A DNA stretch of 11,056 nucleotides from Oscillospiraceae bacterium (lineage in GTDB: Bacteria > Bacillota > Clostridia > Oscillospirales > Ethanoligenentaceae), in contig DOXU01000148.1 of the NCBI GenBank assembly GCA_003518885.1, positions 1-11,056 of the forward strand. The letters run 5' to 3'. Under the pieces are notes generated by a model. That model saw only the letters and a list, made by a program, of their open reading frames with translations, had not been told where the DNA came from and did not search any database. This document shows positions 1-11,056 of the stretch, in pieces. Numbering within the stretch: position 1 is the first letter of the stretch; the number at the start of each line of letters is the position of its first letter. Made by a program: the position numbers and the translations under genes.

Positions 1-1259
1 CTCCTTTGTCTGGCTCTGTCACACCCCCCCCCTCTCAAAGTGCCGCCCATCGTGGCATCATCTGTGCTGCTTTGGCCGACGGATGTTCTCATATCGCCCC
101 CTATGCGGACTCCAAAGATATGCAGGCAACCACAAATGTTATGCGAGCACTTGGCACCTTCATCCGTCAGGAAGGAAAATCCTTAATAATTGATGGAAGC
201 AGAACTTTCAGTAAAACTACTGGAACACTCGATTGCCTTGAATCAGGGTCCACCTTGCGCTTCATTATTCCCATTTCTTCCCTACATGGGGGAACTTGGA
301 CCTTTATCGGCCGTGGAAGACTCGCCGAACGTCCACTTGATCCTTACCTGCATTGTCTGCCCCAAGCGGGCGTCACCTGTGAAACGCCTCCAGCTGGTGG
401 GCTGCCCCTTACCATCCACGGTGCTCTGCAAGCAGGAGACTTTTCCTTGCCTGGCAATGTAAGTTCACAATTCGTCACCGGATTATTGCTGGCACTCCCA
501 CTTTTGCAGGAAAATAGTCATATTACTTTGACCAGTCCACTGGAATCTGTTGGCTATGTCAATTTGACTTTGGATGCCATGCATACATTTGGCGTTACTG
601 TCAAGTCTGATGCAAGCGGCTATTTCATTCCGGGTGGTCAACACTACCAAACACGTGACTTCACTGTGGAAGCGGATTGGTCACAAGCGGCCTTTTGGTT
701 AGTGGCTGGTGCTCTTTCAGGCCCTATCTCTGTCTGCGGATTAAACACACATTCTAAACAAGGAGATGCGAACATTTTAAAAATCTTGGAGCAATTTGGC
801 GCTAAAATCACTCAACAAGGCCACACAGTCACGGTAGAATCCGCTCCGTTACACGGAATCGAAATCGATGGCGCACAAATTCCAGATTTAATTCCCGTCT
901 TAGCCACTGCCGCTTGTTTTGCCTCTGGCACCACTGTTATTCGCAATGCAGGCCGTCTACGTCTTAAAGAAAGCGATCGATTGCATATGATAGCAAAAGG
1001 GCTAAATTCCCTTGGCGCACAAGTCACAGAACAGCCAGATGGTTTAACAATCTTAGGGCCACTTCAAGGCAACCCGGATTCCATGCCCACCCTCGATGGT
1101 GCAAACGATCACCGTATTGTGATGGCACTCTCTATCGCAGCAGCTCATGCCGGTGGAGCTGAAATTACAGATGCAGAATCTATCCAAAAATCGTATCCTA
1201 CATTTTTTACACATCTTCATGCACTTGGGGGGATTTCTGATGTCGTCCACATGGGGTAA
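1..1259 (+). CDS. aroA: 3-phosphoshikimate 1-carboxyvinyltransferase (EPSP synthase), 5' partial
   Basis: Sixth step of the cytosolic shikimate pathway: transfers the enolpyruvyl group of PEP to shikimate-3-phosphate. The reading frame is open to the left edge. The TTG at 6-8 aligns inside the family's N-terminal LSG segment, so the true start lies upstream of the window. Counting from that codon, I see PPPSQSAAHR (7-16), SGSTLRF (80-86), the S3P-binding SSQ (153-155), the catalytic Asp in IPDLIP (D294), RLKESDR (319-325), NDHR (367-370) and the C-terminal Lys in SIQKSYP (K395). This is the whole two-domain enzyme minus roughly ten residues. The odd point is Q11 (codon 36-38), where nearly all family members have Lys (K22 in E. 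coli). The last 20 bases overlap aroC, implying translational coupling. Identity is very certain; activity with Gln is an open question. Confidence 0.96.
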   Translation, partial: PLSGSVTPPPSQSAAHRGIICAALADGCSHIAPYADSKDMQATTNVMRALGTFIRQEGKSLIIDGSRTFSKTTGTLDCLESGSTLRFIIPISSLHGGTWTFIGRGRLAERPLDPYLHCLPQAGVTCETPPAGGLPLTIHGALQAGDFSLPGNVSSQFVTGLLLALPLLQENSHITLTSPLESVGYVNLTLDAMHTFGVTVKSDASGYFIPGGQHYQTRDFTVEADWSQAAFWLVAGALSGPISVCGLNTHSKQGDANILKILEQFGAKITQQGHTVTVESAPLHGIEIDGAQIPDLIPVLATAACFASGTTVIRNAGRLRLKESDRLHMIAKGLNSLGAQVTEQPDGLTILGPLQGNPDSMPTLDGANDHRIVMALSIAAAHAGGAEITDAESIQKSYPTFFTHLHALGGISDVVHMG

Positions 1260-2337
1260 TCAATTAAAATTATCAATATTTGGAGAGTCACACGGTGACG
1301 GTATTGGTGTTGTGCTGGATGGCCTGCCATCTGGAGAAGAAATCGATCAAGGGGAAATTCTTACACAAATGGCCCGCCGCGCTCCCGGACAAAATACGCT
1401 CTCCACGGCCCGTAAGGAGAAAGACCAACCAGAAATTCTTTCAGGCCTATTTGAAGGGCATACCACAGGCACACCACTTTGTGCTATGATTCGGAATCAG
1501 GATACACATTCAAAAGATTATTCCGAATTAAAAATTCATCCACGACCAGGACACGCAGATTATACTGGCGCAATCCGTTATAATGGATATAATGACTATC
1601 GTGGAGGTGGCCATTTCTCTGGTAGATTAACTGCCCCTCTTACCTTTTCTGGTGCCGTCTGTCGTCAAATTCTAAAAAGACGTGGTATCCTCATCGCAGC
1701 GCATCTATTTTCTGTAGGTAAAGTGAAGGACATCCCATTTGATCCCACTAAAACAACAGAAAAAGATCTACATACACTGCTACAAGCTCCATTCCCTGTC
1801 TTGAATACAGATGCCGGACAAGCCATGCAGCAAGAAATTGAAGATGCCCGACAAAACGGGGACTCCGTTGGTGGTATAATTGAGTGCATCGCAATAGGAC
1901 TTCCCGCTGGCATTGGAAGCCCCATGTTCGATGGAATAGAAAATCGACTTTCTTCTATCTTATTCGGTGTTCCTGCTGTAAAGGGAATTGAATTCGGAAA
2001 TGGATTCGCCGCCGCCTCTTTGCATGGCAGCGAAAATAATGATGACTTTATCCTGCAAGGCGACTCCGTTCGTACGGAAACAAACCGTCATGGAGGCATT
2101 TTAGGGGGAATTACCACAGGGATGCCTTTACTTTTCCGCGCCGCCTTAAAGCCGACACCCTCTATTTTTCAAAAACAAAAGACGGTTGATCTCCATGAAC
2201 ATACCGAAACCACTTTAACAATACACGGCCGTCATGATCCTTGCATCGCCGTGCGTGCCGTTCCTGTTATAGAATCAGCCGCGGCAACTGCCCTTTTAGA
2301 TTTATTACTGGAGGCATACGGCTATGAATTTAGATGA
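1240..2337 (+). CDS. aroC: Chorismate synthase
   Basis: Last common step of the aromatic pathway: FMN-dependent 1,4-elimination of phosphate from EPSP to give chorismate. The start is the ATG at 1240, not the upstream in-frame ATG at 1147. It gives the family N-terminus MSSTWGNQLKLSIFGESHG and is preceded by a G-rich site (1227-1232). Length is 365 residues, normal for the family. All three signatures are present: FGESHG with H18, RPGHADYTG (102-110, H105) followed by DYRGGGHFSGR (119-129), and HGRHDPCIAVRAVPVIESAAA (from about 329). The two His residues match the catalytic pair known in the family. There is no flavin reductase fusion, so it is a monofunctional enzyme relying on a separate source of reduced FMN. 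It overlaps aroA by 20 bases and pheA by 14. Confidence 0.97.
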   Translation: MSSTWGNQLKLSIFGESHGDGIGVVLDGLPSGEEIDQGEILTQMARRAPGQNTLSTARKEKDQPEILSGLFEGHTTGTPLCAMIRNQDTHSKDYSELKIHPRPGHADYTGAIRYNGYNDYRGGGHFSGRLTAPLTFSGAVCRQILKRRGILIAAHLFSVGKVKDIPFDPTKTTEKDLHTLLQAPFPVLNTDAGQAMQQEIEDARQNGDSVGGIIECIAIGLPAGIGSPMFDGIENRLSSILFGVPAVKGIEFGNGFAAASLHGSENNDDFILQGDSVRTETNRHGGILGGITTGMPLLFRAALKPTPSIFQKQKTVDLHEHTETTLTIHGRHDPCIAVRAVPVIESAAATALLDLLLEAYGYEFR

Positions 2338-3472
2338 AGCGCGTAAGACAATTGATCAGGTGGACAAACAACTTCTTGCTCTTTTTGAACAAAGGATGCA
2401 AGCAGTGCAAGCGGTCGCCGATTACAAACGCAAAAACAACCTGCCTGTTTTCGATTCTAAACGTGAACAACTGGTTTTGAACAAGGCACGTGACGCCGTT
2501 TCTCCCTCGCTGGAAAACCAGGCCGTGACCTTTGTTCGCGCACTGATGGATATTTCTAAGGACTTAGAAAGACAAGAACTCTCTGTTGGAAGAGTCCGAG
2601 ATCACCTTTTGCATCGTTTGGTGGGGCAAACGAGGACACCAATTCCCGCTCCACGCGTCGTTGTACAAGGCATCCCCGGCGCTTATTCCCATCAAGCAGC
2701 TATGCAGATGTACCCTGATGGACAAATTACCTTTGTAAAACGTTGGATCGACGTCTTTTTTGCCTTGCGTGATGGCCTTTGCGATTATGGTGTTTTACCT
2801 ATAGAAAATTCTTATGCGGGCACTGTCTCAGACGTTTATGATTTACTACACGAATTTCATGCTTACATTGTAAAAGGCTATCCACTGGATATTCGACATT
2901 TTTTACTAGGCGTGCGTGGCTCCAATTTAAATCAAATCAAAAAAATTTATACCATTCCTATTGCATTCAACCAATGTCGAGATTTCTTCAGAGAACACCA
3001 TCGCCTTGAACTTATTCCTACCACCAACACGGCGATTGCCGCACAAATGATAGCCAAAATGGGGGATCCCACCTGCGCTGCCGTCTGCTCACAAAAATGT
3101 GCCTCCATTTACGGATTGGATGTTCTAAAAGAGGACATCCAACAAACAGACAATAATTGCACACGCTTTATCTCCATTGCAAGTCGATCAGAGCTCTCCT
3201 CCAATGCGAATAAAATCAGCCTTCTGTTTTCCCTTCCCCATATTACAGGCTCGTTGAAACGCATTTTATCGCACTTTTCCAACATTGGATTGAACCTAAC
3301 CAAAATCGAGTCTAGGCCGATTCCGGATAAAAATTTTGAGTATATCTTTTACTTAGATTTCACGGGTAATCTTTCTAAACCCGGGACGGTCGCGCTTTTA
3401 AACGGTTTAAAAGACGAACTCGGTACTTTTCAATTTCTCGGCAACTATTTTGAGCCCAAATCGACAGAATAA
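2324..3472 (+). CDS. pheA: Bifunctional chorismate mutase / prephenate dehydratase (P-protein)
   Basis: Converts chorismate to prephenate and then to phenylpyruvate, the branch to phenylalanine. The start ATG at 2324 has a GGAGG site (2310-2314) nine bases upstream. Residues 1-90 form an AroQ-type chorismate mutase. R7, R24, K35, D44, R47, E48 and Q84 all match the E. coli active-site set with a constant offset of four. The dehydratase domain (about 111-285) shows GIPGAYSHQAA (116-126), PIENSYAGTV (159-168) and TRF (280-282). The ACT domain (about 296-375) has a Gly-Ser-Leu variant of the GAL motif and the ESRP motif, so phenylalanine feedback is likely. The usual SHPQ stretch reads TIPI (210-213), although the following NQC Gln (Q217) is kept. 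It is the last gene of the operon and is followed by a strong hairpin. Confidence 0.95.
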   Translation: MNLDEARKTIDQVDKQLLALFEQRMQAVQAVADYKRKNNLPVFDSKREQLVLNKARDAVSPSLENQAVTFVRALMDISKDLERQELSVGRVRDHLLHRLVGQTRTPIPAPRVVVQGIPGAYSHQAAMQMYPDGQITFVKRWIDVFFALRDGLCDYGVLPIENSYAGTVSDVYDLLHEFHAYIVKGYPLDIRHFLLGVRGSNLNQIKKIYTIPIAFNQCRDFFREHHRLELIPTTNTAIAAQMIAKMGDPTCAAVCSQKCASIYGLDVLKEDIQQTDNNCTRFISIASRSELSSNANKISLLFSLPHITGSLKRILSHFSNIGLNLTKIESRPIPDKNFEYIFYLDFTGNLSKPGTVALLNGLKDELGTFQFLGNYFEPKSTE

Positions 3473-3481
3473 AATCATAAC

Positions 3482-3523
3482 AACGAAAAGGACGACATCA
3501 ATAAAGATGTCGTCCTTTTCGTT
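3482..3523. terminator. Bidirectional terminator between pheA and hsp20
   Basis: A perfect 18-bp inverted repeat (3482-3499 and 3506-3523) with the six-base loop AATAAA lies ten bases after the pheA stop and 45 bases after the hsp20 stop on the other strand. The arms end in AACGAAAAGG/CCTTTTCGTT. On the minus strand the hairpin is followed by GTTATGATTTTATT; on the plus strand by ATTTAGATCC. The T-runs are moderate, but the stem is very stable and its place between convergent genes fits termination of both. A smaller GGGTG...CGCCC hairpin (3541-3555) lies between it and hsp20. Confidence 0.85.
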
Positions 3524-3567
3524 ATTTAGATCCTCTCACAGGGTGTTACGCGCCCGCTCTGGCTTTA

Positions 3568-3996
3568 CTATTGAATTTCGATATGTTTATCGTTCTCTTG
3601 TTCACCATTTTTAGGTAAAACAATATTTAAAACGCCATTTTCATATTTAGCAGAGATACTAGCGCGATCCACACCTGGGAGATAGTAGGAACGCCCGTTC
3701 TGCCCAGAGGTGCGTTCATGCCGGATAAATCCGTTCTCCTCTACGTCTTTTTCTTCACTACGAGAAACGTTAATATGCAACATCCCATCGTCTTCATACT
3801 GAAGTGCAATATCTTTTTTATCCGTGCCCGGGATATCCACTGCAACGGTATAATTTTGATCCGTCTCTTTAATATCCGTCTTCATGTCACTGCCAGCCAT
3901 AGCCATGGAGAAAAACGGCTCATCAAAGAAACGATTGAGAAACGAACCACCATTCACATTATATGGTACCATATCGTGATGATTAAAACCTAACAT
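3568..3996 (-). CDS. Hsp20/alpha-crystallin family small heat-shock protein
   Basis: ATP-independent holdase chaperone that binds unfolding proteins in the cytoplasm. The protein is 142 residues. The start at 3996 (MLGFNHHDMVPYN) is chosen because AAAGGGG (4006-4012) lies nine bases upstream; the in-frame ATG at 4041 lies upstream of the promoter -10 box and cannot be used. The alpha-crystallin domain spans about residues 38-132, starting near MKTDIKETDQNYTVAVDIPG. It has the hallmark AxxxxGVL motif (AKYENGVLNIVLP) near its end. The C-terminus HIEIQ carries the I-x-I motif that docks neighbouring subunits in oligomers. The gene is monocistronic, convergent with pheA, and has its own promoter and a CtsR-like operator. 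Confidence 0.95.
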   Translation of the reverse strand: MLGFNHHDMVPYNVNGGSFLNRFFDEPFFSMAMAGSDMKTDIKETDQNYTVAVDIPGTDKKDIALQYEDDGMLHINVSRSEEKDVEENGFIRHERTSGQNGRSYYLPGVDRASISAKYENGVLNIVLPKNGEQENDKHIEIQ

Positions 3997-4029
3997 TATA
4001 AACAACCCCTTTCTTTTGATTGCAAGATT

Positions 4030-4058
4030 AGTATACATCAAAGATCAAAGAAAGTCAA
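4030..4058 (-). promoter_or_regulatory. Sigma-A type promoter of hsp20
   Basis: On the minus strand, TTGACT (4053-4058) and TATACT (4030-4035) are separated by exactly 17 bases. Each box has one mismatch to the housekeeping consensus. The -10 lies 34 bases upstream of the hsp20 start codon, leaving room for a short leader with the AAAGGGG site. It is the best promoter match in the window. Confidence 0.85.
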
Positions 4059-4059
4059 A
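4043..4059. promoter_or_regulatory. CtsR-type operator overlapping the hsp20 promoter
   Basis: On the plus strand GATCAAA-GAA-AGTCAAA matches the known CtsR heptad repeat, RGTCAAA-NAN-RGTCAAA, with a single mismatch (A for G in the second base of the first heptad). A third imperfect heptad, CATCAAA, abuts it at 4036-4042. The site covers the -35 box and most of the spacer, a position where a bound repressor would exclude RNA polymerase. CtsR control of hsp20-type genes is known in some Bacillota. The ctsR gene itself is not in this window. Confidence 0.7.
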
Positions 4060-4088
4060 GTCTAATTGATAAATTTATTACTTGCAAT

Positions 4089-4139
4089 TTTTAGAATAAG
4101 GCTGTTTTTCTAAAATAGCGCCCGATTTCTCTCGAAATC
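4089..4139 (-). terminator. Possible 3' hairpins downstream of proA
   Basis: Two inverted repeats follow the proA stop. GATTTC-GAGA-GAAATC (4124-4139 on the minus strand) is six base pairs closed by a GNRA tetraloop. TTTTAGAA...TTCTAAAA (4089-4115) is eight base pairs with an 11-base loop and ends in As and Ts. Neither is GC-rich, and neither is followed by a clear long T-run, so termination here is plausible but weakly supported. The second hairpin would also lie upstream of the hsp20 promoter. Confidence 0.35.
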
Positions 4140-4165
4140 TTAATATTTTAAATTATTCAATTTCA

Positions 4166-5412
4166 TTATTGACGGATTTGGCCGGAACCATAAATTTGAT
4201 ATTTCACCGTAGTCAAAGCATCCAAGCCCATTGGGCCACGCGCATGTAATTTCTGCGTAGAGATACCGATTTCTGCGCCAAAACCGAACTCACCACCATC
4301 TGTAAAACGGGTAGAGGCATTCACATAAACAGCAGCAGCATCAATTTCCTGCATAAACCGTTCGCTATTTGTATAGTTTTCCGTCACAATGCATTCACTG
4401 TGCCCAGTGGTATAACGACGAATATGGGCAATTGCCTCATCTAAATCATCTACCACGCGAACAGCCAGAATATAATCCAAAAACTCAGTAGCCCAATCCT
4501 CTTCTGTTGCGAGCTGTACACTTCCCCTAAAATGCGGCGTACCTCTTCATCTCCACGCAAGGCCACTTGTTTTGTATCGAGCAAGGCTTTTGCCTTGGGC
4601 AAGAATTGCTCTGCAATCTTTCGGTGAACCAACAGGGTCTCAGCTGCATTACAAACAGATGGTCTTTGTGCCTTAGCATTAAAGATAATTTGCGCAGCCA
4701 TGTCCAGATCTGCGCTCTCATCCACATAAACGTGACAATTGCCAGTGCCCGTCTTAATGACCGGCACAGTTGCATTTTTTACTACACTTTGAATTAGCCC
4801 TGCTCCACCACGTGGAATCAAAACATCTAGATAATCGTTCAGTGTCATCATGGCATTTGCACTCGCACGGGAAAGATCCTCTACAACCTGGATACCCTCT
4901 TCCGGTAACCCGCATTTCTTTAAGGCCAGCTGCATAATACGACCAAATGCCAGATTCGAGTGAATGGCTTCCTTCCCCCCACGTAAGATGCAAGCATTCC
5001 CTGACTTTAAGCATAAACTTGCCGCATCAACTGTGACATTCGGTCGTGCCTCGAAAATAATACCCACTACGCCCAATGGAACGCGTACTTTAGAAATACG
5101 TAGGCCATTTGGACTATTCCATCCTGCATCCACTTTTCCTATTGGATCGGGTAAACCCACCACGTTCTCCACGCCAGCGGCGATTCCCTCAAGACGTTCA
5201 TGTGTAAGAGAGAGACGGTCTATCAAGGCTTTCCTTAATCCACTGGCCTTTCCATTCGCGACATCCTCCGCATTGGCCTTTAAAATTTCCGTCTCATGCT
5301 CTCGAATCATCTGAGCGATGCTACTAAGCGCCTGATCTTTTTGTGCAGATGAGGCCGAAAACAATTTCCGTGTGGCCTGTTTTGCCTTTTTACCCATTTC
5401 TTCTATTGTCAT
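4166..5412 (-). pseudogene. proA: Gamma-glutamyl phosphate reductase, frameshifted
   Basis: Second step of proline synthesis: NADPH-dependent reduction of glutamyl-5-phosphate to glutamate-5-semialdehyde. The first frame (5412 down to about 4520) encodes a normal ProA through the catalytic Cys in QRPSVCNAAETLLVH (C254) to [13 protein letters not shown] (near 297). It then runs into foreign-looking sequence and stops at 4450. The other frame resumes family sequence at [20 protein letters not shown] and continues through [31 protein letters not shown] to the stop at 4166. Restoring one base near 4515-4527 gives 415 residues, the normal length. The start ATG overlaps the proB stop (ATGA) and follows AGGAGGAG. 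Either a sequencing error or a real inactivating deletion; a GGGG run on the coding strand (4524-4527) is a likely spot. No convincing slippery site is seen. Confidence 0.9.
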
Positions 5413-6230
5413 GATAACTCCTCCTCTGCCCTTCTTTTCGACGGAAAATAAGTGCCAACCGGCTTCCCATCTAGTAAGTCATATAATTTCTCTGGATATT
5501 TTCCATTCATAATAACCATATCAATCCCATTTTTCGTGACAAGTTCTGCTGCATCCAATTTGGCAATCATTCCACCTGTACCAAGTGAAGAACCTGCTCC
5601 TTCGGCGTGAGAACGAATACCTTTATCTATATTCTTTACAATCGGAATCAATTCTGCGTCATCACAAGTACGGGGGTTATGATCATACAGTCCATCAATA
5701 TCACTTAGGAGTACCAACGCATCCGCTTGGATCAATGTAGCAACAATAGCAGATAGCGTATCATTTCCCCCAAATGTCATCGCTTCCTCTTCAACTTCTT
5801 CCACTGCAATAGAGTCATTTTCATTGACAATGGGAATAACTCCCAAATCAAGAAGTGACTCAAATGTGTTGATAAGATTTTGACGTGTATTATGATGTTC
5901 TGTGATAATCCGTGTCATTAAAATTTGTCCCACCACATGCCCATAAGGTACAAACAGTTTATCATATAAATACATCAGTTCAACCTGCCCTACAGCAGCG
6001 GCAGCTTGCATCGGGCGGGTATCGTGTGGTCGCTCCTTCATATTCAGCCGTGCAGCTCCTACGCCAATGGCCCCTGAAGAAACTAAAATAATTTCTTTCC
6101 CACTATTTTTAATGTCAGCAAGAACACGAACCAGCTTTTCTGTCCGACGGATGTTTAAACTTCCGTTCGGATAAGCCAGCGTGGATGTGCCTACCTTTAC
6201 GACAATTCGTTTTGCATCATGTAAAGCCAT
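5409..6230 (-). CDS. proB: Glutamate 5-kinase, short form without PUA domain
   Basis: First step of proline synthesis: ATP-dependent phosphorylation of glutamate, passing labile glutamyl phosphate to ProA. The amino acid kinase fold is complete in 273 residues: VVKVGTSTL (10-18), LVSSGAIGVGAARL (49-62), NENDS (136-140), FGGNDTLSA (153-161), LLSDIDGLYDHNPR (174-187) and GTGGMIAKL (217-225). The E. coli enzyme is near 367 residues with a C-terminal PUA domain. That domain is absent, and the protein ends about 30 residues after the kinase core. The ATG at 6230 follows a GGCGGGGGAAA site. The stop overlaps the proA ATG by four bases, so the pair is an operon with coupled translation. The conserved glutamate/proline-binding kinase residues appear present, so feedback inhibition by proline may remain. 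Confidence 0.96.
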   Translation of the reverse strand: MALHDAKRIVVKVGTSTLAYPNGSLNIRRTEKLVRVLADIKNSGKEIILVSSGAIGVGAARLNMKERPHDTRPMQAAAAVGQVELMYLYDKLFVPYGHVVGQILMTRIITEHHNTRQNLINTFESLLDLGVIPIVNENDSIAVEEVEEEAMTFGGNDTLSAIVATLIQADALVLLSDIDGLYDHNPRTCDDAELIPIVKNIDKGIRSHAEGAGSSLGTGGMIAKLDAAELVTKNGIDMVIMNGKYPEKLYDLLDGKPVGTYFPSKRRAEEELS

Positions 6231-6246
6231 TATTTTTCCCCCGCCT

Positions 6247-6274
6247 TATGCTATTTCTTCATTATTATAGCATA
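6247..6274. repeat. Inverted repeat over the proBA -10 region
   Basis: TATGCTAT (6247-6254) and ATAGCATA (6267-6274) form a perfect 8-bp dyad separated by 12 bases. On the minus strand the upstream arm contains the extended -10 element and the other arm falls near the expected transcript start. It could be an operator or form a small 5' mRNA hairpin. No regulator is named by the sequence. Confidence 0.6.
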
Positions 6275-6292
6275 CGCCAACTATCTTTAAAA
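6264..6292 (-). promoter_or_regulatory. Extended -10 promoter of proBA
   Basis: On the minus strand TGCTATAAT gives a perfect TATAAT (6264-6269) with the TG dinucleotide of an extended -10 (6270-6272). The -35 region is poor: TTTAAA or TTTTAA at 6286-6292 with 16-17 base spacing. This is typical of extended -10 promoters. It lies just after the hydG terminator and 34 bases upstream of the proB start codon, so proBA has its own transcript. Confidence 0.65.
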
Positions 6293-6299
6293 GCAAGCC

Positions 6300-6346
6300 C
6301 TAAAATAAGAAACAGCCGGGTAGAGGATTTCTCCACCCGACTGTTT
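6300..6346 (-). terminator. Intrinsic terminator of hydG
   Basis: On the minus strand, 16 bases after the hydG stop, AAACAGTCGGGTGGAG (6346-6331) pairs with CTCTACCCGGCTGTTT (6325-6310) over 16 positions. Fourteen are Watson-Crick and two are G-U; the loop is five bases. The sequence CTTATTTTAG follows. It ends the TM1266-hydG transcript ahead of the proB promoter. Confidence 0.85.
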
Positions 6347-6362
6347 TCCCCAATGCTTTTAT

Positions 6363-7811
6363 TTAGACGCGTAGATCACGTTCACCGTTCTCTAATCGCT
6401 GCAAATAATCCTGTATTTTTGCATAAACCGGTTCATTTTTAAACTGTTCCACATGTTGTGCAATAATCTTTTCGCCCTCTTCACGGGTTTTTTCATCAGC
6501 ATAATCCAGTAGATATTCCTTAAAGGTGAAAATGGCATTCGGGATGCAGAAATGATGGACAAATTTCGACTTTGCAAAGCCCATAAATTCTTCACCAACA
6601 CGACCGGCACGATAGCAGGCCGTACAGAAAGAAGGAATGTTCCCCATCTCACCGGTCTCGCGAACAACATCATTAAGTGAACGGGTATCACCCAAAGAAA
6701 ATTGTTCTTTATCAGGCAATGCATTGGCATCATGTCTGCCATATCCACCCACGCCAATACGTGTTCCACCGTCAATTTGAGAGACACCCAACGGTAAAAC
6801 AGCATTACGAACTTCTTTACTTTCACGTGCTGTACAAATCATACCGGTATATGGTACAGACAGCCGAATAACGGCGACTAATTTCTTAAAGTCTTCATCG
6901 CTAACTGCATATTCCGGATGATCAGAAAATGGTGTGCCCGTTGCCGGGGTAATGCGTGGGAAAGAAATGGTATGAGGCCCAATTCCATTAAACATTTTTT
7001 CCAAATGCATGGTGTGATACAGAAGCCCCATCACCTCAAAGCGCCAATCGTAAAGGCCAAACAGTGCACCAATTCCCACATCACCAAGACCGGCTTCAAG
7101 GCAACGATCCATGGCATACAATCTCCAACGATAGTTGCCTTTTACTGTACCCTTTGGATGCAAGCGCTGATATGTTTCATGATGGTAGGTCTCCTGAAAA
7201 ACCTGGAAGGTTCCGATTCCCACTTCTTTCAACTGGCGCAATTCATCCACTGAAAGCGGAGCCGCATTAATATTGGCACGACGGATCTCCCCGTTTCCTT
7301 CTTTTACGCTATAAACTCTTTTAACAGACTTGCAAAGAAAATCAATGCCTGTATGTGGGGATTCCCCGTACACCAATACAGTCCGTTTTTGTCCCTCTTT
7401 AATCATGGTGCGGACTTCTTCATCAATTTGCTCCATGGAGAGTGTTTTCCGCTCCATCATATGGTTACTACTGCGGAAGCCACAATATTTGCAGTCATTT
7501 GCGCATTCATCACTAATGTAGAGTGGCGCGAAGAAAACAATGCGATCACCATAGACCTCTTGTTTTAATTTATGTGCAAGAGCAAACATTTCCTCCAAAG
7601 TTTCTGGGTCCTTGTTTTGAAGCAAAATGGCCGTTTCTTCTGGATCCAGACGTACCGTTTTTTCTGCTTTTTTCAACACAGCACGTACTTGCTCTTTTGT
7701 CGGGTTTTCAGCCGCTCTAAGCTGTTTCCAAATCTTTTCATCATCAATAAAATCATGATCCATTTGATCATATTTTTCAAACTCTTTTTGATATTGTTCC
7801 AAATAGTCCAT
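6363..7811 (-). CDS. hydG: [FeFe]-hydrogenase H-cluster radical SAM maturase HydG
   Basis: Radical SAM tyrosine lyase that cleaves tyrosine to p-cresol and dehydroglycine, from which the CO and cyanide ligands of the hydrogenase H-cluster are made as an Fe(CO)2(CN)-cysteine synthon. The SAM cluster motif CX3CX2C is C103, C107, C110 (DECANDCKYCGF). The second, HydG-specific cluster motif CX2CX22C is C396, C399, C422. Together these separate it from ThiH and HydE. Length is 482 residues, normal for HydG. The start at 7811 (MDYLEQYQKEFEKYD) is chosen because AAAAGG lies nine bases upstream; in-frame ATG 7820 and GTG 7835 are badly spaced. It begins one base after the stop of the TM1266-family gene, so the two are cotranscribed. 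hydE, hydF and the hydrogenase itself are not in the window. Confidence 0.97.
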   Translation of the reverse strand: MDYLEQYQKEFEKYDQMDHDFIDDEKIWKQLRAAENPTKEQVRAVLKKAEKTVRLDPEETAILLQNKDPETLEEMFALAHKLKQEVYGDRIVFFAPLYISDECANDCKYCGFRSSNHMMERKTLSMEQIDEEVRTMIKEGQKRTVLVYGESPHTGIDFLCKSVKRVYSVKEGNGEIRRANINAAPLSVDELRQLKEVGIGTFQVFQETYHHETYQRLHPKGTVKGNYRWRLYAMDRCLEAGLGDVGIGALFGLYDWRFEVMGLLYHTMHLEKMFNGIGPHTISFPRITPATGTPFSDHPEYAVSDEDFKKLVAVIRLSVPYTGMICTARESKEVRNAVLPLGVSQIDGGTRIGVGGYGRHDANALPDKEQFSLGDTRSLNDVVRETGEMGNIPSFCTACYRAGRVGEEFMGFAKSKFVHHFCIPNAIFTFKEYLLDYADEKTREEGEKIIAQHVEQFKNEPVYAKIQDYLQRLENGERDLRV

Positions 7812-7812
7812 C

Positions 7813-8079
7813 TTATCCATCCTTTTCTGCTGCACGACCTTTGGCCAGTGCTGTCTTAACGGTCACACCACGAATTCTACCAAGTTTCCCTGTCATGGCA
7901 CTAATCTGATCATGGTTTCCATCCACAATCAAGGAAATGACGGATACCCCACGTTCTCGATAAGGAATGCCCATGCGGCCAACAATTACCGCCGCGTAAT
8001 TATGTAAAACCGTATTGATTTCGGCGGCCTTCTCCAAATTTTCTACAACAATGCCGACGACACCCATTCGTTTTTCCAT
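7813..8079 (-). CDS. TM1266-family putative iron-only hydrogenase system regulator
   Basis: An 88-residue protein of the small alpha/beta family, similar to ACT or NikR C-terminal domains, that is found next to [FeFe]-hydrogenase maturation genes. Its biochemical role is not established. The family pattern is clear: MEKRMGVVGIVVENLEKAAEINTVLHNYAAVIVGRMGIPYRERGVSVISLIVDGNHDQISAMTGKLGRIRGV. There is an N-terminal beta strand, a helix, the VGRMGIPY turn, a second strand ISLIVDG and a second helix before the GVTVKTALAK strand. The ATG at 8079 is preceded by AAGGAAGGAAG with nine-base spacing. The frame stays open upstream to 8193, but that extension has no family resemblance and crosses a terminator. 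There is no DNA-binding domain, so direct repression is doubtful; ligand sensing or a maturation role are alternatives. Confidence 0.88.
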   Translation of the reverse strand: MEKRMGVVGIVVENLEKAAEINTVLHNYAAVIVGRMGIPYRERGVSVISLIVDGNHDQISAMTGKLGRIRGVTVKTALAKGRAAEKDG

Positions 8080-8108
8080 AAAAACGGTCTTCCTTCCTTT
8101 TTGCGCAG

Positions 8109-8145
8109 AAAAAGCGCCTTTTCCCCCCGTGAGGAGAAAAGGCGC
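8109..8145 (-). terminator. Intrinsic terminator inside the TM1266-hydG leader
   Basis: On the minus strand GCGCCTTTTC (8145-8136) pairs perfectly with GAAAAGGCGC (8123-8114) around a 12-base C/G-rich loop. TTTTTC (8113-8108) follows immediately. It ends 29 bases upstream of the TM1266-family start codon and downstream of a likely promoter. argF already has its own terminator at 8392-8428, so this one most likely acts on the hydrogenase-maturation transcript itself. Confidence 0.75.
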
Positions 8146-8298
8146 GGAAAATCCAATCGACTTCCGACAATTCTTCCCGCGCGGAGTATACACGCCACAC
8201 AGTCAGCTCCAATCAGAACTAAAACAACGTCATCCAAACAAATGTACCGGCCGTATCGTATACATCTGCAGGAAATGCAAAAAGCCAACGCTCTTTAC
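8109..8298 (-). promoter_or_regulatory. Structured 5' leader of the hydrogenase-maturation operon, candidate attenuator or riboswitch
   Basis: The 357 bases between argF and the TM1266-family gene hold no convincing gene but are rich in structure. From a start near 8298 the transcript would carry about 190 bases before a terminator. Just upstream of the terminator, GCGCGGGAA (8182-8174) can pair with TTTCCGCGC (8150-8142), nine pairs with one G-U. This is topped by AATTG/CGATT (8172-8168 with 8159-8155). Its 3' arm shares GCGC (8145-8142) with the 5' arm of the terminator, so the two hairpins exclude each other. A GGAG/CTCC stem (8210-8207 with 8186-8183) abuts the antiterminator. Smaller pairings lie further upstream (GTAT-ACG-ATAC near 8263-8253). 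This is seen by hand only. I recognise no known riboswitch class or T-box core. Confidence 0.55.
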
Positions 8299-8304
8299 AA
8301 TTTT

Positions 8305-8333
8305 ATCATAAAACAGTTGAAGAAGAATTACAA
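8305..8333 (-). promoter_or_regulatory. Promoter of the TM1266-hydG operon
   Basis: On the minus strand TTGTAA (8328-8333) and TATGAT (8305-8310) are 17 bases apart. The -10 matches consensus in five of six positions and the -35 in four. It is downstream of the argF terminator and about 225 bases before the first start codon, leaving a long leader. Confidence 0.6.
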
Positions 8334-8371
8334 TGGATTCTTTCCTATCTTTCGTTTCATCCAAAACCACG

Positions 8372-8387
8372 CCATATTGTAATATGG
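8372..8387. promoter_or_regulatory. Palindrome upstream of the hydrogenase-maturation promoter
   Basis: CCATATT-GT-AATATGG is a perfect 7-bp dyad with a two-base centre, about 40 bases upstream of the -35 box. The centre is too small for a good RNA loop, so it looks like a protein-binding site. It does not match the Rex, Fur or CRP/FNR consensus patterns that I know. Confidence 0.4.
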
Positions 8388-8391
8388 TTTA

Positions 8392-8428
8392 TCAAATAAA
8401 AAAAGAGGAGGTATTTCCCTTCTCTTTT
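8392..8428 (-). terminator. Intrinsic terminator of argF
   Basis: Eight bases after the argF stop on the minus strand, AAAAGAG-A-AGG (8428-8418) pairs with CCT-C-CTCTTTT (8411-8401): ten pairs and one A-C mismatch, with loop GAAATA. TTTATTTGAT follows. It closes the arginine operon. Confidence 0.7.
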
Positions 8429-8436
8429 ATCTTCCT

Positions 8437-9339
8437 TTATTCCATCAACAAAACCATAACGGCCTTTTGAGCATGAAGACGATTTTCCGCTTCTTCAAAG
8501 ATTTCATCGGCATGTGCCTCAAAAATATCCGCCGTGATCTCTTCTCCACGATGTGCAGGCAAACAGTGCTGTACCATAGCATCCGACTTGGCTGCATCCA
8601 TAACCTTCTGATTGATCTGATAGCCAGCAAATGCTTTCTTTCTCTTCTCCGCTTCTTGCTCTTCGCCCATAGATGCCCAAACATCAGTGATAACAACATC
8701 GGCGTCTTTGGCTGCCTCTGATGGATCACGAACTAATGTAAACCCGCCGTGTTCCTTGGCAAAATCAAGAACCTGTTGATCAGGTTCATACCCTTCTGGT
8801 GAGGCCACTGACACTTCCATACCTACTTTCAACCCGCCCACAATCAGAGAATTGGCCATATTATTACCATCTCCAATAAAGCAAAGCTTCAAGCCTTTCA
8901 AGCGCCCTTTATACTCACGCACGGTCATTAAATCGGCTAATACTTGACATGGATGTGCAAAATCAGTCAACCCATTAATGATTGGAATACTGGAGTACTT
9001 TGCTAATTGCTCCACTTCCTCCTGTGCAAATGTACGAATCATAATCCCATTTAAATAACGAGAAAGAACCCTAGCCGTATCCTGTATAGGCTCACCACGT
9101 CCAATTTGCGAAGTCTGCGCACTAATAAACAAGGCGTGACCACCCAACTGATACGTACCTGTTTCAAAGGAGACACGCGTCCGCGTAGACGCTTTTTCAA
9201 AAATCATACCCAGCGCTTTTCCTGCCAGACGCGGGTGTGCAATGCCATGCTTAAGCTCATATTTAAGTTGATCGCCAAGGTTCAAAATATTTAAGATTTC
9301 CTGTTCGGAAAGGTCTAACAGTTTCAATAAATTTTTCAT
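8437..9339 (-). CDS. argF: Ornithine carbamoyltransferase
   Basis: Joins carbamoyl phosphate and ornithine to make citrulline, the sixth step of arginine synthesis. At 300 residues it is the size of anabolic cytosolic trimeric enzymes. The carbamoyl-phosphate site STRTR (51-55) and HPCQVLADLMT (129-139) are intact, as are the ornithine loop DVWASMG (219-225) and HCLPAHRGEE (258-267). The DVWASMGEE and HCLPAHRGEEI pairing separates it from aspartate carbamoyltransferase. The ATG at 9339 follows AGGAGG (9350-9355) with ten-base spacing. It is the third visible gene of an arg operon, 62 bases after argD with no terminator between, and its own terminator follows. Its position after argB and argD in a biosynthetic cluster argues for the anabolic rather than the arginine-deiminase role. 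Confidence 0.97.
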   Translation of the reverse strand: MKNLLKLLDLSEQEILNILNLGDQLKYELKHGIAHPRLAGKALGMIFEKASTRTRVSFETGTYQLGGHALFISAQTSQIGRGEPIQDTARVLSRYLNGIMIRTFAQEEVEQLAKYSSIPIINGLTDFAHPCQVLADLMTVREYKGRLKGLKLCFIGDGNNMANSLIVGGLKVGMEVSVASPEGYEPDQQVLDFAKEHGGFTLVRDPSEAAKDADVVITDVWASMGEEQEAEKRKKAFAGYQINQKVMDAAKSDAMVQHCLPAHRGEEITADIFEAHADEIFEEAENRLHAQKAVMVLLME

Positions 9340-9401
9340 GTTTTAGTCGCCTCCTGGAAAGTCGAATATTCTCTATATCCATCAATCAATTTCAGAACGT
9401 T

Positions 9402-10589
9402 TTATGCTTTTCTCGCGTCTTTTAGCACATCCACAAAAATGTGCAAGCCCGCATCAATTTCCTCTTTTGTAATAGTCAGTGGTGGCAACATACGGAAAGA
9501 AGTCTTGGCCGTCAGCATCAGCAATCCACGTTCTGCTGCTAATTTTACAGCGGCACTACTTTCCACGCCCTTCACATCAAATCCAATCATTAACCCAAGA
9601 CCACGGATGTTATGAACACCTGGCAGCTCGGCCAATTTCGAACGAATGTACGCCGCTTTTTCACGCACCTGTTGTAAAAATTCTGGTTTGGTCACACGGG
9701 AAAGTACTTGAATCGCTGCCGCGCAACAAATTGGTGTTCCACCAAATGTGCTGGCATGTGTGCCAGGTGTGAAGACATCTTTGCATTTTTCGTTACAAAG
9801 GACAGCCCCCATTGGCAATCCACCGGCCAATGCTTTTGCACAAGAAATAATATCCGGTTTCACCCCAAAATGCTCAAACCCGAATATGTTGCCTGTGCGA
9901 CCAATACCGCATTGCACCTCATCAAAGCAAAGCAGAATATCTTTTTGTTCTGCTAATTCCGCTGCCGCTTTTACAAAAGATGCATCCAGTGGATGAACCC
10001 CACCTTCTCCTTGTACGGCTTCCATCAAAATCGCACAAACATCATCCTGTAAAGCTGCCTTTAGCTCTTCTACATTGTTAGCTTCTACAAAGCGGAAACC
10101 CTCTGTAAAAGGAAAGAAATAGTTGTGAAAAACATCTTGTCCTGTCGCGGCAAGTGTTGTCACCGTACGTCCGTGAAAAGAGTTTTTCAGACAAACAACA
10201 ATACCACGGTTTTTCCCGTATTTATCGAAACTATACTTTCTTGCAAGTTTAATTAAACCTTCATTACTTTCCGCGCCAGAGTTGCAGAAGAACACACGAG
10301 AAAATCCGGTACTCTCACAAAAGAGTTTGGCGCATTCTGCCTGCACTGGGCTGTAATACAGATTGGAAATATGCGCCAACTTGTTTGCCTGTTCAGAAAC
10401 CGCTTTTACCCATTCTTCATCGGCAAAGCCCAATGCATTTACACCGATTCCACTACCAAAATCGATATAAGTTTGCCCATTGACGCCTTTAGCTGTTGCC
10501 CCTTTACCGGAAACCAAAGCTACATCAAAACGGCCATAACTGTGCATCACATATTGGTCATAATCTGCTTTTATTTGTGCAAAGTCCAT
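9402..10589 (-). CDS. argD: Acetylornithine aminotransferase
   Basis: PLP-dependent transaminase that converts N-acetylglutamate-5-semialdehyde and glutamate to N2-acetylornithine and 2-oxoglutarate; many homologues also serve lysine synthesis. It is 395 residues, the normal length for class-III aminotransferases. The phosphate-binding NSGAES (103-108), SFHGRT (137-142), the cofactor Asp in CFDEVQCGIGRTG (D223) and the Schiff-base lysine in SCAKALAGGLPMG (K252) are all visible. The N-terminal MHSYGRFDVALVSGKGA matches ArgD rather than ornithine or GABA aminotransferases. The ATG at 10589 follows AAGGAG with eight-base spacing. It starts 50 bases after the argB stop, in the same operon. Confidence 0.95.
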   Translation of the reverse strand: MDFAQIKADYDQYVMHSYGRFDVALVSGKGATAKGVNGQTYIDFGSGIGVNALGFADEEWVKAVSEQANKLAHISNLYYSPVQAECAKLFCESTGFSRVFFCNSGAESNEGLIKLARKYSFDKYGKNRGIVVCLKNSFHGRTVTTLAATGQDVFHNYFFPFTEGFRFVEANNVEELKAALQDDVCAILMEAVQGEGGVHPLDASFVKAAAELAEQKDILLCFDEVQCGIGRTGNIFGFEHFGVKPDIISCAKALAGGLPMGAVLCNEKCKDVFTPGTHASTFGGTPICCAAAIQVLSRVTKPEFLQQVREKAAYIRSKLAELPGVHNIRGLGLMIGFDVKGVESSAAVKLAAERGLLMLTAKTSFRMLPPLTITKEEIDAGLHIFVDVLKDARKA

Positions 10590-10639
10590 TTGAATCGCTC
10601 CTTGTTCACTCTGCTCATGGACACGGGTCCAATACAGAT

Positions 10640-11056
10640 TTATTTAAACATCGTCCCTATGCCGCTATCTGAAAACGTTTCCACCAAAATTGCATGTGGA
10701 CGTCTTCCGTCGATGATATGCGCCCGCCGCACACCTCGTCTAACAGCCTCGACGCAACAATCAATTTTCGGAATCATTCCACCAGAAATAATACCCGACC
10801 GAATTAAAGCGGGCACTTCGCTAACATTGACAACCGGGATCAATGTAGAATCATCATCTTTATCCCGAAGCAATCCACGAATATCTGTCAATAAGATCAG
10901 CTTTTCGGCGCCCAGCGCCGCCGCAATACGAGCGGCGGCCGTATCTGCATTAATATTATAAACTTTTCCGTCTGTCCCAGCACCCATTGTGGCAACTACC
11001 GGGATATACCCTTTGCTCAAGGCGTCATGAATTGGTGTCACATCCACACTTTCGAC
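10640..11056 (-). CDS. argB: Acetylglutamate kinase, 5' partial
   Basis: Second step of arginine synthesis: ATP-dependent phosphorylation of N-acetylglutamate. Only the last 138 or so residues are in the window, and the frame is open to the right edge. The GTG at 11047 is an internal Val codon in ESVDVTPIHDAL, not the start. The ATP-binding half is clear: GYIPVVATMG, YNINADTAAARIAAALGAEKLILLTDIRGLLRD, the SGGMIPK loop with its Lys, and the C-terminal HAILVETFSDSGIGTMF. It ends 50 bases before argD. In the common argCJBD(F) order argJ and argC would lie further right, outside the window. The short N-terminal portion that would show arginine sensitivity is not visible. Confidence 0.95.
   Translation of the reverse strand, partial: VESVDVTPIHDALSKGYIPVVATMGAGTDGKVYNINADTAAARIAAALGAEKLILLTDIRGLLRDKDDDSTLIPVVNVSEVPALIRSGIISGGMIPKIDCCVEAVRRGVRRAHIIDGRRPHAILVETFSDSGIGTMFK

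Follow-up and report, generated by a model that had tools for sequence, protein, structure and literature searches.

The hyd-leader RNA is a family of small hairpins in the 5' leaders of [FeFe]-hydrogenase maturation genes, and it probably serves as a transcription attenuator with three alternative structures, whatever it is that closes the hairpin. It is described here starting from a stretch of 11,056 nucleotides (nt) of DNA from an Oscillospiraceae bacterium (GenBank assembly GCA_003518885.1, contig DOXU01000148.1, positions 1 to 11,056; hereafter the window), in which a leader of about 220 nt precedes a TM1266-family gene and hydG on the minus strand. An initial annotation of the window had proposed a new attenuator or riboswitch at this place, and the proposal is borne out by an RNA family that was found without gene information. 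By computation, the base pairs of the family covary, the same genes recur downstream, three structures of the leader exclude one another, and the terminator arm fits the hairpin strand. A closed hairpin likely turns the genes off. The function and any ligand had been put forward as inference, a standing that the ligand, its direct binding and the sensor keep here.

The hyd-leader RNA family

The consensus of the family, CCU-GA-CCGC-AA-GG(n)CC-GA-GCGG-GA-AGG, folds into one helix with two 2x2 loops: P1 (CCU/AGG), a GA/GA loop, P2 (CCGC/GCGG), an AA/GA loop and P3 (GG/CC). The starting loci came from two sources: 59 related genomes, which were searched and gave 30 loci with relatives of TM1266, and named genomes, whose best 80 loci were taken. 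Of these 110 loci, 83 have a terminator-like hairpin no more than 330 nt before TM1266, a raw count without a shuffled control. The motif CCUGA-CCGC-AAGG...CCGA-GCGG-GAAGG was recognised by reading the leaders; a covariance model built from 10 sequences (R1) yielded further members, and a second model (R2) was built from 25 matches.

Covariation and conservation in relatives, which the initial annotation had named as the check on its proposal, are both seen. The 25 aligned matches of R2 covary clearly. In a larger alignment (A7) of 73 matches, of which two rows, L048 872-902 (minus strand) and L040 11378-11425 (minus strand), are probably chance, 93.8% of the cells are paired versus 78.4 ± 0.8 in shuffles, and 104 cells are changed on both sides versus 31.0 ± 7.2. 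The covariation score is 0.558 versus 0.261 for shuffled alignments and at most 0.207 for slid versions; none of 500 shuffles reached the observed value of any of the three measures. Besides the two rows named, the R2 matches deemed chance are L122 and L186, inside open reading frames, and L106 and L060, inside hydF. The family thus has one hallmark of a riboswitch, a conserved covarying RNA domain in the 5' leader.

A second hairpin of similar build lies about 50 nt upstream of the core in L115, L153 and other leaders of family f119, as well as in L016, L007, L021, L061 and L131, which suggests that some members of the family are arranged in tandem.

Association with H-cluster maturation genes

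Genome scans with R2 covered 398 genomes of the phylum (E-value 0.001), 26 of one class and 82 of another (both E 0.01), in overlapping sets. The 46 distinct places found include 43 before H-cluster maturation genes (TM1266, hydG, hydE or hydF). One of these genes was located downstream of 42 places by tblastn, for which the HydE and HydF queries were chosen by eye and confirmed by TIGR03956 and TIGR03918; the 43rd, L176, precedes a truncated TM1266 followed by what appears by eye to be hydG. The remaining three are L160, before an ECF-transporter S-component gene, and the two chance-like matches inside open reading frames. The 43 places are spread over seven families (f13, f35, f68, f106, f119, f122 and f141), many of them coming from one genus.

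TM1266 is the gene that most often adjoins the hairpin, and other placements occur: the motif stands between TM1266 and hydG in L134 and L135, at the start of hydG in L084, and in both positions in L183. TM1266 was present in all 12 genomes searched for it, namely 11 that carry the hairpin and G213, where no hairpin was found. In L161 and L176 a truncated TM1266 stands beside a kept leader hairpin and a following hyd gene, and the same genomes hold other copies of TM1266.

Two further observations concern TM1266 loci. In G330, G172, G460, G461, G462, G258 and G263 the main copy is accompanied by additional genes like TM1266 that score 30-58 bits, less than the family cut-off. At L090 a motif match (5190-5225) precedes TM1266 by about 770 nt and is itself followed by a terminator-like hairpin.

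The leader in the window

The minus-strand order in the window is argB-argD-argF (argB assigned by eye), a terminator-like hairpin, a promoter-like site, the leader, TM1266 and hydG. The features of this region are listed below in the direction of transcription; comparison within the genus was made with one genome, G001.

8401..8428, minus strand: terminator-like hairpin directly 3' of argF, between argBDF and the TM1266 leader; -10.9 kcal/mol, then a T-run
8305..8333, minus strand: promoter-like site TTGTAA-17-TATGAT, 9 of 12 matches; predicted transcription start near 8298
8239..8268, minus strand: upstream leader hairpin, CAGATGTA (8268-8261) with TACATTTG (8246-8239); weak evidence
8173..8206, minus strand: core hairpin of 34 nt, candidate sensor; R2 match, fold -15.8 kcal/mol, strands kept in G001
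8142..8182, minus strand: antiterminator, 8182-8173 (GCGCGGGAAG) with 8151-8142; 10 pairs, -19.2 kcal/mol
8109..8145, minus strand: intrinsic terminator, a hairpin of 14 pairs (8145-8114) followed by a U-tract (8113-8109); -23.3 kcal/mol, kept in G001
7813..8079, minus strand: TM1266-family gene, putative iron-only hydrogenase system regulator; TIGR03959, 118 bits, cut-off 60.8
6363..7811, minus strand: hydG, H-cluster radical SAM maturase; TIGR03955, 503 bits, cut-off 312; start codon picked by reading the sequence

The core hairpin consists of a CU/AG pairing (8206-8205/8174-8173), a 2x2 GA/GA loop (8204-8203/8176-8175) and an 8-pair stem, CUGUGUGG/CCGCGCGG (8202-8195/8184-8177). In the whole window, searched on both strands with filters off, the best R2 match is 8209-8169 on the minus strand (15.0 bits, E 0.016), and the next reaches 10.5 bits. 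A descriptor of the hairpin, framed after the hairpin was known, matches once in the window, and 12 of 20000 shuffled leaders attain 6 pairs. The flanks CUGA...GAAG around a stem of at least four pairs are present at 8206-8173, and the position upstream of hyd maturation genes is that of the family. The second internal loop can be replaced by pairs both in the window and in G001, giving the single 8-pair stem, and the inner GG/CC pairs are kept. The window leader is assigned to the family because of these features, its position, its conservation in G001 and the 15.0-bit score.

Most of the structure first described for this leader stands, with the emphasis moved. The intrinsic terminator reported before TM1266-hydG is present as stated: 8 of its 14 pairs are G-C, and TTTTT follows. 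It does not belong to argF, whose stop codon is directly followed by a separate hairpin and T-run (8428-8401). The second hairpin said to take terminator bases (8182-8174/8150-8142) also exists and is lengthened by one G-U pair to 8182-8173/8151-8142, occupying terminator bases 8145-8142. The conserved element, however, is the hairpin 8206-8173, overlooked at first, whose 3' strand is the antiterminator arm. Both strands of the proposed stacking stem, GGAG (8210-8207) and CTCC (8186-8183), occur in the leader, but the stem is not kept in G001 (GGAGCTGAC versus GCGACTGAC). The proposed promoter is likewise a mixed case: the site is there, and the aligned place in G001 reads TATACT, but the window shows no excess of promoter-like sites over shuffles (25 versus 21.1 ± 4.9 expected), and taken alone 8333-8305 is a weak candidate.

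The leader as a whole (8300-8108) folds better than any of 200 dinucleotide shuffles (z -5.95), and terminator-like sites as a class show a mild excess in the window (16 versus 10.0 ± 3.1 expected). The hairpin 8268-8239 is comparable in position to the first of the two hairpins in some other members, and its sequence is not conserved. Between G001 and the window, the hairpin strands, antiterminator arms and terminator are conserved, whereas much of the remaining leader has diverged. The G001 antiterminator has at least 10 pairs, and both of its differences are one-sided C/U exchanges that still pair.

Alternative structures and proposed attenuation

The strand 8182-8173 belongs both to the core hairpin, as its 3' strand, and to the antiterminator, whose partner 8151-8142 lies partly in the terminator. 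Core hairpin, antiterminator and terminator are therefore mutually exclusive in the window, and all three are kept in G001. Minimum-energy folds of the growing transcript pass through them in order: the hairpin appears first, the antiterminator is seen at 8140, and the terminator comes last, with the hairpin returning at some steps between. A second hallmark of riboswitches, an expression platform exclusive with the sensor, is thus present by computation.

The same arrangement is found across the family. In 77 of 88 chosen leaders a terminator (score at least 12) lies between the hairpin and the gene. The leaders were chosen by hand from the R2 matches (89), leaving out near duplicates (such as L034, L118, L120, L141, L156, L171, L175, L179 and L189), chance matches and the places that are not plain leaders (L084, L090 and L176). 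The count of 77/88 stands without the L161 row and L041 (terminator inside TM1266). In L119, L157, L159 and L162 the hydE starts given by tblastn lie behind the terminators; starts from the HydG query, which are too early, would give 73.

In 74 leaders the hairpin 3' strand pairs with the 5' arm of its own terminator at a mean of -10.47 kcal/mol, versus -8.84 ± 0.24 with swapped partners (best of 2000 swaps, -9.83) and -5.09 for the stretch upstream of the motif, a contrast partly raised by the common descent of related leaders. Leaving out doubtful rows reduces the set to 69 leaders, with -10.53 versus -8.90 ± 0.26 kcal/mol (best swap, -9.77). The terminator arm thus follows the hairpin across lineages, as expected of an antiterminator that is shared with the sensor.

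In the proposed mechanism the core hairpin 8206-8173 would be the sensor. When it is open, 8182-8173 would pair with 8151-8142 as the antiterminator, and RNA polymerase would continue into TM1266-hydG. When it is held closed, in the favoured case by a small molecule tied to H-cluster synthesis, as in a riboswitch, 8182-8173 would be blocked, the terminator 8145-8114 could form, and TM1266-hydG would be off. That a stabilised hairpin means OFF follows from the layout, and the same direction is predicted at the level of translation by the ribosome-binding-site version in L210-L214.

The ECF transporter link

The regulon was first drawn around TM1266 and hydG; in some lineages it also holds an ECF-transporter S-component. 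The link occurs in three families of one class, where the RNA lies in the ECF gene's own leader (L160/L195), before a TM1266 with the ECF gene behind it (7 loci), or at the ribosome-binding site. The 20 ECF loci comprise 7 with the order motif-TM1266-ECF, L195 (which is the L160 place itself), 5 with the ribosome-binding-site layout and 7 without the motif. In family f68 the AGG strand of the hairpin forms the ribosome-binding site for the ECF gene, as placed by R2 in L213 and L214 and, below the model's reach, by eye in L210-L212.

The L160 S-component matches PF12822 at 30.9 bits (cut-off 30.7) and has homologues in 24 of 26 genomes of the same class. It has no credible sequence match in the PDB, and its homologues carry generic names at most, such as "ECF transporter S component" and "ThiT". 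Its predicted structure (pLDDT 92.2) has ThiT and RibU as nearest folds, with weak E-values. Among the 80 named loci, five have TM1266 and then this S-component gene (L033, L034, L082, L101 and L105; L033 and L034 are near duplicates), and four of the five have a leader motif match.

TM1266 is directly followed by an uncharacterised ECF S-component in L200-L203 and L205-L207 as well as in the five named loci, which represent several lineages, and a link between hydrogenase maturation and nutrient import is possible.

What closes the hairpin

The first choice for the signal is direct sensing of a small molecule by the leader RNA, on the ground that a vitamin-type ECF importer lies behind the same RNA. 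The hyd-leader RNA may accordingly be a new class of riboswitch for a small molecule of H-cluster biology, with transcription as its level of action and, in one family, translation. It would control the maturases and, in some lineages, the ECF importer; this dedicated importer would supply the sensed molecule or a precursor. Both the direct sensing and the class are put forward tentatively, at a confidence somewhat short of balanced.

Protein-mediated attenuation is somewhat less probable than that and still a serious rival: TM1266 or another protein would bind the hairpin and favour it, and hence termination, in the way PyrR acts on pyr leaders, in which a hairpin competes with an antiterminator; the protein would read the signal. 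A small hairpin carrying internal loops would be a fitting site for a protein, and the L049 leader is faintly like a PyrR site (24.9 bits, gathering threshold 54, E 0.12). TM1266 is the obvious candidate, as the most frequent neighbour of the hairpin, annotated as a putative regulator, with a weak likeness to the later part of nickel-responsive regulators (NF002169, 20.7 bits, cut-off 111, profile positions 55-127 of 141). Because it occurs in all 11 hairpin genomes checked, presence or absence does not separate the readings, and a protein sensor stays plausible. RNA binding by TM1266 is, on the other side, a supposition. L161 and L176 keep the hairpin beside a TM1266 that is truncated by eye, though both genomes have other copies, and the ECF target points to a small-molecule signal, though a protein could read that too.

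HydG consumes tyrosine, and the layout is attenuator-like, so that a ribosome stalling on a short open reading frame, for example at tyrosine codons, might choose the hairpin. This is very improbable: the window leader has no open reading frame of at least 5 codons with a sequence like a ribosome-binding site, nor do 15 of 18 related leaders (in the other three the listed frames lie at the edge of the scanned piece), and conservation falls in the paired and internal-loop bases rather than in codons.

Several facts weigh against the proposed attenuator, or against the window as a member of the family. The scan at E 0.001 matched in 8 of 398 genomes, yet 213 of them have TM1266; a leader match was found in 35 of the 80 named TM1266 loci (E up to 5) and 13 of the 30 relatives (E up to 10), and many terminators stand without a recognised hairpin. 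In both the covariation test and the swap test related leaders enter more than once, so that the figures are not probabilities; taken one by one, 23 of the 74 leaders attain p 0.05 when compared with shuffled strands. A search for the ECF gene in the window's genome (1.39 Mb assembled, 62.6% complete) and in 19 relatives, among them G001, gave no hit. The window copy lacks the second 2x2 internal loop (AA/GA), and its score is low at 15.0 bits. When R2 was run over the genome it comes from, the scan missed it; the matches listed were an apparently unrelated one of 18.3 bits, antisense inside an open reading frame, and one of 14.8 bits (L112, G000:C15:4554-4587), probably chance, some 120 nt upstream of an amidohydrolase gene (TIGR01891). 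Given that score and that scan, the window copy would be unacceptable without its position and its G001 counterpart. The arm-pairing test is not significant for the window (p 0.815) or for G001 (p 0.50), in the window because half of its antiterminator falls outside the terminator arm.

The low score, the higher unrelated score elsewhere in the genome, the weak promoter site and the lost loop would also fit a window without regulation, that is, a plain terminator beside hairpins that arose by chance, or a family member that has decayed. This is improbable, since it is the antiterminator, both strands of the hairpin and the terminator that are conserved in G001 while much else has diverged, and since argF has its own terminator.

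Relation to known regulators

The initial annotation had matched the leader to no known class, and the searches agree. At the gathering threshold, Rfam 15 gave in 40 loci (20 + 20) just tRNA, 5S rRNA and Gut-1, none of them the leader RNA, and relaxed E-values gave no credible family in the window, L044, L191 or L049. Among the literature matches listed, judged by title and the start of the abstract, none concerned an RNA regulator of hydrogenase maturation; supplements and most subscription journals were outside the scope of the search, and the family may have been described before, for instance with no more than a serial number as its name. The parts of PMC11109978, PMC8632094, PMC6429828, PMC7266159, PMC8040213, PMC2864571, PMC11477304, PMC3543383, PMC8457756 and PMC9481103 that carry hydrogenase or maturase words mention no such regulator. 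On the basis of Rfam 15 and this search, the hyd-leader RNA is an uncatalogued new family of a known kind, the terminator-type cis-regulatory RNA.

With terminator-type riboswitches it shares the 5' leader position, the conserved covarying domain, a sensor strand shared with the antiterminator, the competition of antiterminator and terminator and, in one family, a second, translational layout; it differs in that its ligand and direct binding are putative and no Rfam 15 class matches in the loci searched. The guanidine-II riboswitch consists of two tandem small hairpins, and the last five of the tandem leaders named above have two tandem model matches. In contrast to guanidine-II, the hyd-leader RNA conserves internal loops and varies its hairpin loops, and in many leaders just one copy is recognised. 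PyrR-binding attenuators (RF00515) resemble it in the competition of hairpin and antiterminator and in the faint L049 score, but the scores of 24.9 and 15.6 bits stand against a gathering threshold of 54, and the genes are unrelated.

Other regulators meet the same genes by other means. According to a review (PMC9481103), tandem Wco riboswitches precede some hydrogenase genes; the Moco/tungsten-cofactor riboswitch has this position in common with the hyd-leader RNA, but it had no match in the 40 loci at gathering or in the relaxed lists of the window, L044, L191 and L049. Predicted Rex sites are given for hydG and TM1266 in Clostridium thermocellum (PMC8457756), and hydG is reported, in an abstract, as part of the Rex regulon of Caldicellulosiruptor (PMC6391272). 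Rex control concerns the same genes, but Rex is a protein that acts at the DNA level, not a leader RNA. A gut survey mentions a candidate RNA near radical SAM domains, mainly in Bacteroidetes, which was not compared with the hyd-leader family.

Neighbouring genes

The hairpin behind argF (8428-8401) was located on the plus strand in the terminator scan, and its listed energy is that of the minus-strand fold. Further downstream of hydG, proA (4166-5412, minus strand) looks by eye frame-disrupted, with overlapping open reading frames 4450-5412 and 4166-4480 that seem to hold its N- and C-terminal parts, from a sequencing error or in a pseudogene.

Significance

H-cluster assembly sets whether many anaerobes make or use hydrogen, and to our knowledge little is known about how a cell decides to build the cluster. 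Similar hairpins stand before the hyd maturation genes and an uncharacterised transporter in many anaerobic bacteria. A leader RNA common to hydE, hydF, hydG, TM1266 and an orphan ECF transporter offers a compact 36-nt target for ligand screening, hints at the roles of TM1266 and the transporter, and could be a native control part for hydrogenase engineering. If it is a small-molecule riboswitch, it would mean RNA-level control of [FeFe]-hydrogenase assembly and would point to an unrecognised nutrient in that assembly.
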